Shown here: positions 32,288 through 52,095 of the stretch, in pieces
Numbering within the stretch: the first letter of the stretch is position 1
Layout of the letters: every line of letters starts with the position of its first letter
Notes under the pieces: model-generated
Told to the model about the DNA's origin: nothing
The model's input: only the letters and a program-made list of their open reading frames with translations
Database searches by the model: none
Translations under genes and position numbers: made by a program
Assembly (NCBI RefSeq): GCF_900142985.1
Contig: NZ_LT670849.1
Location: 7,332,501-7,396,500 of the forward strand
Direction of reading: 5' to 3'
Length of the DNA stretch: 64,000 nt
Source: Bradyrhizobium erythrophlei
GTDB lineage: Bacteria > Pseudomonadota > Alphaproteobacteria > Rhizobiales > Xanthobacteraceae

Positions 32288-32654
32288 GATGGCAGGGCTC
32301 CCTTGTTCTTATGGGCGGCCGAAGCAAGGCCGCGATCGGGAAAAGCTCGGGGAAAGAGGCCGCGCGAGTATGCGCATTCGTTTCCGCAGCGCAAGACGCC
32401 GGGGTCGGATGGCAGCGTTGTCCCTCGAAACGTCAGAGGGCGGAGGAAAAGCCGGCGCTTTCCGCAGCGCGATGTCGTTCGTCTCTCGACACGGCCAGCG
32501 TCCATCGCCTCCCAGCTCAACGACGATCGCGAAATGCACCTCTGATGCTAACGTGACGCCTTCGGCCTTTCAAATCTCCGCGAGCGGCCGGCTGTTTTCG
32601 CTTGAGTTCACATTGCTTGATCTAACATCGGAGGCGAAATCTGGGAAAAATTGC
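32288..32654. other. Intergenic region without a recognised gene
   Basis: The space lies between the divergent amidohydrolase and beta-helix genes and should hold both promoters. Open frames across it exist in all frames because of high G+C content, but none shows a domain, signal sequence or ribosome binding site. No repeat family of the window is present. Confidence 0.5.
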
Positions 32655-43812: not shown

Positions 43813-44301
43813 GATTTCAAACAGCCGAGCAGACAGCCGCAATCGGTCTCGCGGCGCGAGAGGCGCGCCCGAGTGATCCTCAGACCTTGCCTCTCCAACA
43901 GGAGGGCGCAGGGAAGACCGGGCGCTCGGCGAGCACCCGCAGTCTCATGCGCGAAATAAAAAGCACATGAGTTAGCCACCACAGGTTCGCCGGATCGATC
44001 CGGCCTTCCCTGCGCAATGGTTTTAACGGGTTCCTCCGTGCTCTCCCCGGTGATCGGGCTTTCTTGTCACCGTCATCGACGTGACGCGCAAGCGTCATCG
44101 TCAATTTGACTTCAGCGTCGAGAAGTCAGGACCACACGGCTTCGCCGTCCGCATCGATGCACGTCGTCTACGCACAACAAAGCGGCCACCGCATCCCGCT
44201 CCACGTTCGTGACGATCGCGATACGCCCCTCTTGACGAGGCGGGACTGTTGGAATCACTAAGGCTGCTTCTACCAAATGGCGAAGAGATTTATTTTTCGC
44301 C
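43813..44301. repeat. Structured repeat, long copy (candidate structured RNA)
   Basis: The first 222 nt (43813-44034) match the repeat at 51878-52095. Nested inverted repeats are conserved: GCGCAGGGAAG (43906-43916) with CTTCCCTGCGC (44005-44015) close the structure; inside are a hairpin at 43920-43938 (GGG.GCTC loop GAGC.CCC), a stem CTCATG/CATGAG (43944-43971), and the perfect palindrome GCCGGATCGATCCGGC (43989-44004). Downstream, further hairpins occur at 44048-44072, 44082-44097 (GCAA loop), 44107-44128, 44136-44148 and 44279-44301. There is no protein-coding signal. Direction of function is unknown. Confidence 0.8.
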
Positions 44302-44381
44302 GAGGGGATGGACTTTGGTTTGCGCGAGGTGCGCGTTGATTTGCCCGTCGGGCAGTTTGCTCGGAAAGGTCGTTCGGAAGT

Positions 44382-51877: not shown

Positions 51878-52095
51878 CATTTCAAACAGCCGGATAAGCA
51901 CGCGCATTCGTTCCCGCGGCGCGGATAGCGCCCGAGTGATGCGTGAACCTTGCCCTTCGAGAAGAGAGGGCGCAGGGAAGACCGGGCGCCGGATGCACCC
52001 GCAGCCTCGTATGCAAAAGTGAAAAGCATACGAGTAGTCACCACAGGTTCACCGGATCGATCCGGCCTCCCTGCGCAATGGTTTTAACGGCTTCC
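51878..52095. repeat. Structured repeat, truncated copy
   Basis: This copy matches the first 222 nt of the repeat at 43813. The closing stem is GCGCAGGGA (51970-51978) with TCCCTGCGC (52068-52076). The hairpin 51984-52000 and the palindrome 52052-52065 (CCGGATCGATCCGG) are kept. The third stem is CTCGTATGC (52006-52014) with GCATACGAG (52026-52034), a perfect 9 bp with different bases from the other copy, so pairing is conserved while sequence is not. It ends where a nuclease fragment begins; the longer 3' part of the other copy is absent. Confidence 0.8.

Follow-up and report, generated by a model that had tools for sequence, protein, structure and literature searches.

A dispersed repeat of Bradyrhizobium erythrophlei with a covarying, predicted RNA fold of about 330 nt on its minus strand

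What is the long, hairpin-rich repeat, devoid of an open reading frame (ORF), that lies near position 44,000 of a 64,000-nt stretch of the Bradyrhizobium erythrophlei genome (contig NZ_LT670849.1, positions 7,332,501–7,396,500; this whole stretch is referred to as the window)? The original prediction had placed one long and one short copy in the window, and had offered three readings of them: a structured non-coding RNA, a structured mobile repeat, or a relict of an RNA from an IscB/TnpB-type element. We found both copies where they had been put, the long one intact and the short one (51879–52095) truncated. The element has a core of ∼330 nt with a terminal closing helix, and its 15 helices carry compensatory changes within one genus. 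Judged by these changes, the family of large structured RNAs is real and is encoded on the minus strand. On balance, and with moderate confidence, the comparison of copies leads us to favour a dispersed, ORF-less element mobilised in trans, the putative product of which is this large folded minus-strand RNA.

We aligned the copies and counted pairs on the minus strand. The structure, which was derived from the same alignment on which its pairs were counted, has 102 pairs in 15 helices; over 53 copies, 93.9% of the 5,333 cells were paired, and double changes were observed in 50 pairs (398 cells). Shuffled controls had a mean of 121 double-change cells and none of the 500 reached the observed value, while sliding the structure along the alignment left 36–51% of the cells paired with 50–79 double-change cells. 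The stems are therefore conserved, with double changes above both kinds of control. Alignments A1 and A4 comprise 53 of the 71 profile hits, and A3 comprises 38. Those left out of A1 and A4 have a long insertion or a missing half (L061, L062, L065–L067, L069–L071, L073–L075); also left out were L043 (interrupted, in two pieces), the short window copy, the L031 fragment, L046 and L047 (cores near-identical to that of L045) and the second L047 piece. The parts of the window element are as follows.

43902–44231, minus strand: structured RNA core, RNA 5′ end at 44231 and 3′ end at 43902 (alignments A1 and A4, pair counts, z −5.53).
Ends of 43902–44231, minus strand: closing helix of the core, GAGGGGCG/CGCCCUC, its terminal helix.
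43906–43921, minus strand: one strand of the long helix, partner 44000–44015 (helix 13; 99.3% of cells paired, double changes in 4 of 14 pairs).
44000–44015, minus strand: other strand of the long helix, overlapping a palindrome of the original prediction (43989–44004).
43944–43971, minus strand: covarying hairpin CTCATGCGC/GCACATGAG (plus-strand letters), loop U-rich in the RNA (helix 15; double changes in 8 of 9 pairs, 98.9% paired; helix 4 of the test on further copies below).
44048–44072, minus strand: covarying hairpin CGGTGA/TCACCG (helix 11; double changes in 2 of 6 pairs, and in 4 of 6 in copies outside the model, as helix 1).
44107–44128, minus strand: covarying hairpin TGACTTC/GAAGTCA (helix 9; double changes in 4 of 6 pairs).
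43814–43901, minus strand: 3′ accessory part with hairpin CTCGCGGCGCG/CGCGCCCGAG and terminal motif CTGTTTGAAAT (RNA strand; by eye).
44232–44356, minus strand: 5′ leader with hairpins, ending in the palindrome TTGATTTGCCCGTCGGGCA (44336–44354; by eye).

The nested stems that had been predicted are present, and the inner stem covaries in the pair counts over the 53 copies. Only part of the palindrome GCCGGATCGATCCGGC forms a hairpin: the outer bases are paired across the long helix, and three pairs of the palindrome are kept in the A3 fold. The location had been given correctly; by eye, however, the element runs from about 43814 to 44356 and reaches past the coordinates first proposed. A tail resembling the 3′ accessory part is also present in Tardiphaga copies.

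For the 3′ half, a covariance model based on copies of the window's genus only matched 27 copies outside the model set, 21 of them from other genera and six from a record titled Bradyrhizobium sp. NFR13 (Tardiphaga-type copies). Among these, 95.3% of the cells were paired and 26 of 37 pairs had double changes, figures that lean towards the model since the copies were fitted to it (alignment A5). Slid controls gave 37–46% paired cells and at most 16 double-change cells. The cross-genus support covers five helices of the 3′ half, and the 5′ half was tested within one genus.

The strand had been taken the other way round, as the first description worked from the antisense strand. The plus-strand fold also showed double changes, in 25 of 56 predicted pairs, and the window core was more stable than its shuffles on both strands (z −5.53 on the minus and −4.38 on the plus strand). 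The wobble pairs differ between the strands: the minus strand has 679 G·U against 106 A·C, and the plus strand 169 G·U against 247 A·C. We assigned the fold to the minus strand because G·U exceeds A·C there and the reverse holds on the plus strand, and a plus-strand model (R1) was dropped on the same test. The alignment energy was −212.65 kcal/mol for the minus versus −175.05 kcal/mol for the plus strand, and the mean single-sequence energy −167.8 versus −135.3. Covariation together with strand-specific G·U pairs supports, within the limits of the model, the proposal of a structured non-coding RNA. This assignment suggests that the ORFs annotated over the repeat on the opposite strand are probably spurious. 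Short plus-strand ORFs do cross the element, as would be expected of an eroded protein-coding remnant with incidental structure, but loop lengths differ by single bases between copies and the helices covary, and we give this explanation hardly any credence.

The promoter region bears on the strand as well. Of 23 chosen Tardiphaga-type copies, 19, nine of which come from the NFR13 record, contained the anchor as well as 80 nt of upstream sequence. In 18 of these 19, a TTGACA-N16/17-TATATT or TATTAT sequence with at most one mismatch lies 19–20 nt before GAGAGGGGC, and the nineteenth has it with two mismatches; two-base-block shuffles reached one mismatch in 0.2% of cases. The hexamers are constant and the spacer is variable. 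The same strand is therefore supported independently of the fold. No sigma70-like promoter was recognised in the 5′ leader (44232–44356) of the window copy. As a separate observation, inverted blocks (CGTCATTCCGGGGCG...) similar to repetitive extragenic palindromic (REP) sequences stand directly upstream of most Tardiphaga-type copies read (L287, L290, L292, L293, L318, L322 and others).

A nucleotide search for copies revealed a genome-wide family. The 489-base query found 40 scored places in the 7.5-Mb genome (of 77 first-look candidates), those other than the query itself being 73–81% identical to it, and the short-copy query added three places, namely the short window copy, 5019222–5019365 and 396720–396854. 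The genome thus holds at least 43 full or partial dispersed copies. A two-block sample of 0.82 Mb, a small one in which two copy-bearing 20-kb blocks had been swapped for shorter loci, contained three strong matches and one fragment, extrapolating to ∼27–36 per genome in fair agreement with the count. A crude gene caller placed 41 of the 42 own-genome copies between genes, and the orientation of the neighbours is without clear bias. Around 57 loci, no protein family recurred apart from the transposase of an IS110-family insertion sequence (IS), other clusters being confined to at most six loci or to short ORFs over the repeat; an autonomous partner gene was sought beside the same loci and none was found.

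Dispersed copies with unrelated neighbours bear out the mobile-repeat proposal. In bin.53, a metagenome-assembled genome, four copies have different flanks, and five of the six pairs among them are 92–98% identical over 457–516 nt, the sixth being 85% identical over 594 nt. By eye, the shared part begins near a TTGACT box and stops at the closing helix. Copies in genome G524 look mosaic, and recombination between copies therefore probably occurs. Synteny matches to the genes flanking the window copy were so short or so diverged that they could not date its insertion. Dispersal in the past is clear; transposition today would be a further, hypothetical step. Separately, one bin.53 copy (L186:5468–5565) adjoins a signal recognition particle (SRP) RNA gene.

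Most carriers found belong to the window's genus. By BLAST, 33 of 60 relatives matched, that is, 33 of 36 of the same genus (own genome included) and none of 24 others. Of the 397 genomes of the order, a model search with stricter filters matched 20, namely 15 of the genus and five outside it: G375 and G501, from two genera of the same family, G299 and G363, from two genera of a second family, and G478, from a third. Class-wide, three of 385 genomes matched (own, G021 and G856). All these searches scored 7–11 candidates per genome, so the counts are lower bounds. The distant-family match in G856 (C208, C245) comes from a 270-contig assembly that is 5% contaminated, and its score is like that of the window's genus; it was taken as contamination from a genome of this genus and not counted as a new lineage. 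Plasmid and phage collections gave no match to the element.

We compared the element with known RNA families and systems. At the gathering score, Rfam 15, HEARO included, gave no match in the window, and nine further loci gave only the SRP RNA gene near one copy; at a low threshold, the window copy, a bin.53 copy and a Tardiphaga-type copy gave chance-level matches only. A strongly covarying RNA of ∼330 nt, with tens of copies in one genome and present in at least five further genera, is thus missing from Rfam 15. The HEARO/IscB omega-RNA, too, is large and folded and belongs to mobile DNA with dispersed copies, and stand-alone multicopy omega-RNAs are known, which would fit a stand-alone guide of an IscB or TnpB nuclease. 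The present element, however, differs in having neither an Rfam match nor a recurrent nuclease ORF beside its copies. The TnpB domain (PF07282) was found in none of 12 carrier genomes, with a working control (6 of 14); the IscB RRXRR domain (PF14239) was also found in none of the 12, although its control was equally silent (0 of 14). By eye, conserved sequence continues on both sides of the core with no obvious guide. A guide RNA of this type is therefore very improbable, and the suggested IscB/TnpB relict finds no support. Bacterial structured RNA motifs include a class of mobile/repeat sequence candidates (MRSC), which, as far as the available text of PMC11109978 describes them, resemble the element in being structured motifs with several copies per genome, are predicted to be selfish, and often accompany transposase, integrase, nuclease or helicase genes; the element here has only its IS110 guest as a recurrent companion.

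Selection on the fold over the history of the family is clear. The nearest-copy identity in the own genome has a median of 0.82 (37 rows), because of which we consider most own-genome copies old. In 18 disjoint own-genome pairs, pairing was kept in 236 of 295 changed pair cells, 104 of them by double change, a count that favours kept pairs since the 88 'good' pairs behind it were preselected at ≥85% paired on the same data. At orthologous loci, compared in six pairs of species of which four have both flanks in common and two have one, differences occur at 89 of 1,180 paired sites and at 89 of 710 unpaired sites. In six orthologs beside one gene, 28 of 214 gapless pairs vary on one side only, seven vary on both sides with pairing kept, and 33 have some broken cell. 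A seventh species has a truncated copy (L073) at this site.

Several results weigh against the preferred account of an element mobilised in trans with the folded RNA as its product. At the orthologous loci, 35 changed pair cells were kept and 30 broken in the six species pairs, and 48 kept and 47 broken in all ten, where alignment forced to a fixed length can inflate the broken ones. Orthologs break pairs about as often as they keep them, so that by these counts resident copies are under weak constraint, even though paired sites change less often than unpaired ones. Only three of 28 uninterrupted own-genome copies carry the promoter within three mismatches, no better than shuffles; the lack of a recognisable promoter suggests that these copies may be silent or driven by a different promoter. 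No mobilising protein emerged from the carriers: Y1 transposase occurs in 3 of 12 (control 5 of 14) and was not found in the window's genome, G375 or G478, and reverse transcriptase (PF00078) occurs in 5 of 12 (control 3 of 14) and was not found in the window's genome, G375, G478 or G524. A target-site duplication was sought by eye and none was seen. Five Tardiphaga-type flanks matched the available T. robiniae stretches over >1 kb without an empty insertion site, four sites being occupied and one running to near a contig end.

Some of these data would suit a multicopy RNA, regulatory or housekeeping, that serves the host and has been amplified, its copies now being for the most part inherited at fixed positions, each with a task of its own. 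Nearest copies are only ∼82% identical and yet, in the preselected pairs, mostly keep their pairing when pair cells change; some copies hold their place between species, and in one ortholog group, conservation of the element is about equal to that of the adjoining gene. Against this stand the near-equal kept and broken changes and the L073 truncation at an orthologous site, as well as the setting of the copies: their orientation has no clear bias and, IS110 and ORFs overlying the repeat aside, no protein family adjoins more than six of the 57 loci. Three of 36 same-genus genomes also lack a BLAST match (11 candidates scored per genome). We regard a host-serving role as unlikely, though still a serious contender.

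The absence of a recognisable promoter from own-genome copies would equally fit a DNA repeat of the REP type or of the bacterial interspersed mosaic element (BIME) type, in which the palindromes matter as DNA or single-stranded DNA and there is no functional RNA. Copies adjoin REP-like palindromes, by eye, both in the window's genus and in Tardiphaga-type genomes, and REPs are known from Bradyrhizobium: in the available text of PMC5082802, Br-REP1 (20 nt) and Br-REP2 of Bradyrhizobium japonicum USDA 110 are short palindromic REPs and, like the element, intergenic repeats of the same bacterial group. Neither consensus, as given there, was found in the window element. In most Tardiphaga-type copies, L326 excepted, the promoter is immediately preceded, as judged by eye, by a block like Br-REP2; a larger repeat around Br-REP2 is mentioned in that paper as data not shown, and it may therefore touch this element. 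Strand-specific wobble pairs and a long-range fold of 15 helices argue against a DNA repeat, as does the promoter sequence that, in Tardiphaga-type copies, points towards the core, and 9 of 12 carrier genomes are without a Y1 transposase. We rejected a REP/BIME with its REP-associated tyrosine transposase (RAYT) on unit size (a 330-nt core with 15 helices instead of a short unit of 20–40 nt) and on the Y1 count, and we consider the DNA-repeat explanation in general improbable. A group II intron or retron RNA was likewise rejected, as reverse transcriptase is lacking from 7 of 12 carriers, the window's genome among them. Searches of openly licensed papers for repeats and structured RNAs of Bradyrhizobium and its relatives did not bring up the element, PMC5082802 being the closest; the available part of PMC3927594 yielded nothing describing it.

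The preferred account, an ORF-less element with a folded RNA spread in trans, would work as follows. The promoter at the RNA 5′ end would be used, and the folded RNA would be what selection sees. Some protein acting in trans would recognise the fold and spread or homogenise the copies. Older copies, such as those of the own genome, would lose the promoter and keep most of the fold. A bolder version is possible, if doubtful: the element may be a bacterial counterpart of short interspersed nuclear elements (SINEs), that is, a unit with a promoter but no ORF that yields nothing but a large RNA, which may be catalytic or guide a protein, and that would be spread in trans among Hyphomicrobiales by machinery other than TnpB, Y1 or reverse transcriptase, and hence a new class of mobile element. 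The element is a clear target for RNA-seq and pull-down, and could expose an unknown RNA–protein mobility system.

The repeat also serves as an insertion site. In the own genome, an element of ∼1.2 kb interrupts 11 long copies (L011, L014, L019, L023, L026, L030, L033, L034, L039, L045 and L046) at a single point, following CGCCCC on the plus strand; the right end of the element is damaged in L033. Its transposase matches PF01548 (DEDD transposase) and PF02371 (Transposase_20) above cut-off. A protein search of the own genome (E ≤ 0.001), which more distant IS110 relatives would escape, gave 11 transposase matches, all in the repeat at this point. We consider the IS110 element a guest of the repeat because 29 of 40 scored places are without it. 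Its leader carries AGCGCCCC or TACGCCCC, which resembles the target and makes it a bridge-RNA candidate. Leader and target of the same copy have an identical 8-mer in 7 of 11 cases and differ at one or two positions in the others; the two variable bases alone give p ∼0.06 in a hand-worked permutation. In L155, from another species, the same point is hit and GACGCCCC occurs in both leader and target. The junctions fit a CT core. The site is given here for the repeat and for the window copy.

Target site of the IS110 element in the repeat: ACGCCCCT.
44223–44234, plus strand: unoccupied IS110-type insertion site ACGCCC-CT-CTTG of the window copy (by homology to the 11 interrupted copies).

IS110 elements are guided by a bridge RNA, an example being IS621 in REP repeats, as described in the available text of PMC11208160. 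The similarities to IS621 reported there are a single insertion point in a repeat, CT-core-consistent junctions and a leader with a left-target-like sequence; unlike for IS621, the target here is a point beside a large RNA element and not a REP, and the IS is a guest, not the origin. Independently of how the repeat itself spreads, the IS110-family element would take it as an insertion site by way of the target-like bridge-RNA candidate, a naturally occurring example of IS110 inserting at a large RNA element.

Two further copies of the repeat lie in the window.

51879–52095, minus strand: truncated copy without the 5′ half of the RNA (115.8 bits).
32377–32542, minus strand: internally deleted remnant, profile positions 5–87 joined to 307–392 (nhmmer E 0.0045 and 2e-6).

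Alignment of the truncated copy with the long one is confined to the latter's first ∼220 nt. The remnant is a third copy, with ∼220 nt gone from its middle. Among the other copies, L061, L062, L065–L067, L069–L071 and L075 form an RNA subtype with an extra conserved domain of ∼170 nt in the 5′ half. One copy (L043:3822–3987) is split by an insert of ∼165 nt with ends like TTTGACATTCGCAT/ATGCGAATGTCAAA, possibly a miniature inverted-repeat transposable element (MITE), and a palindrome similar to these ends also occurs in the flank of L035.
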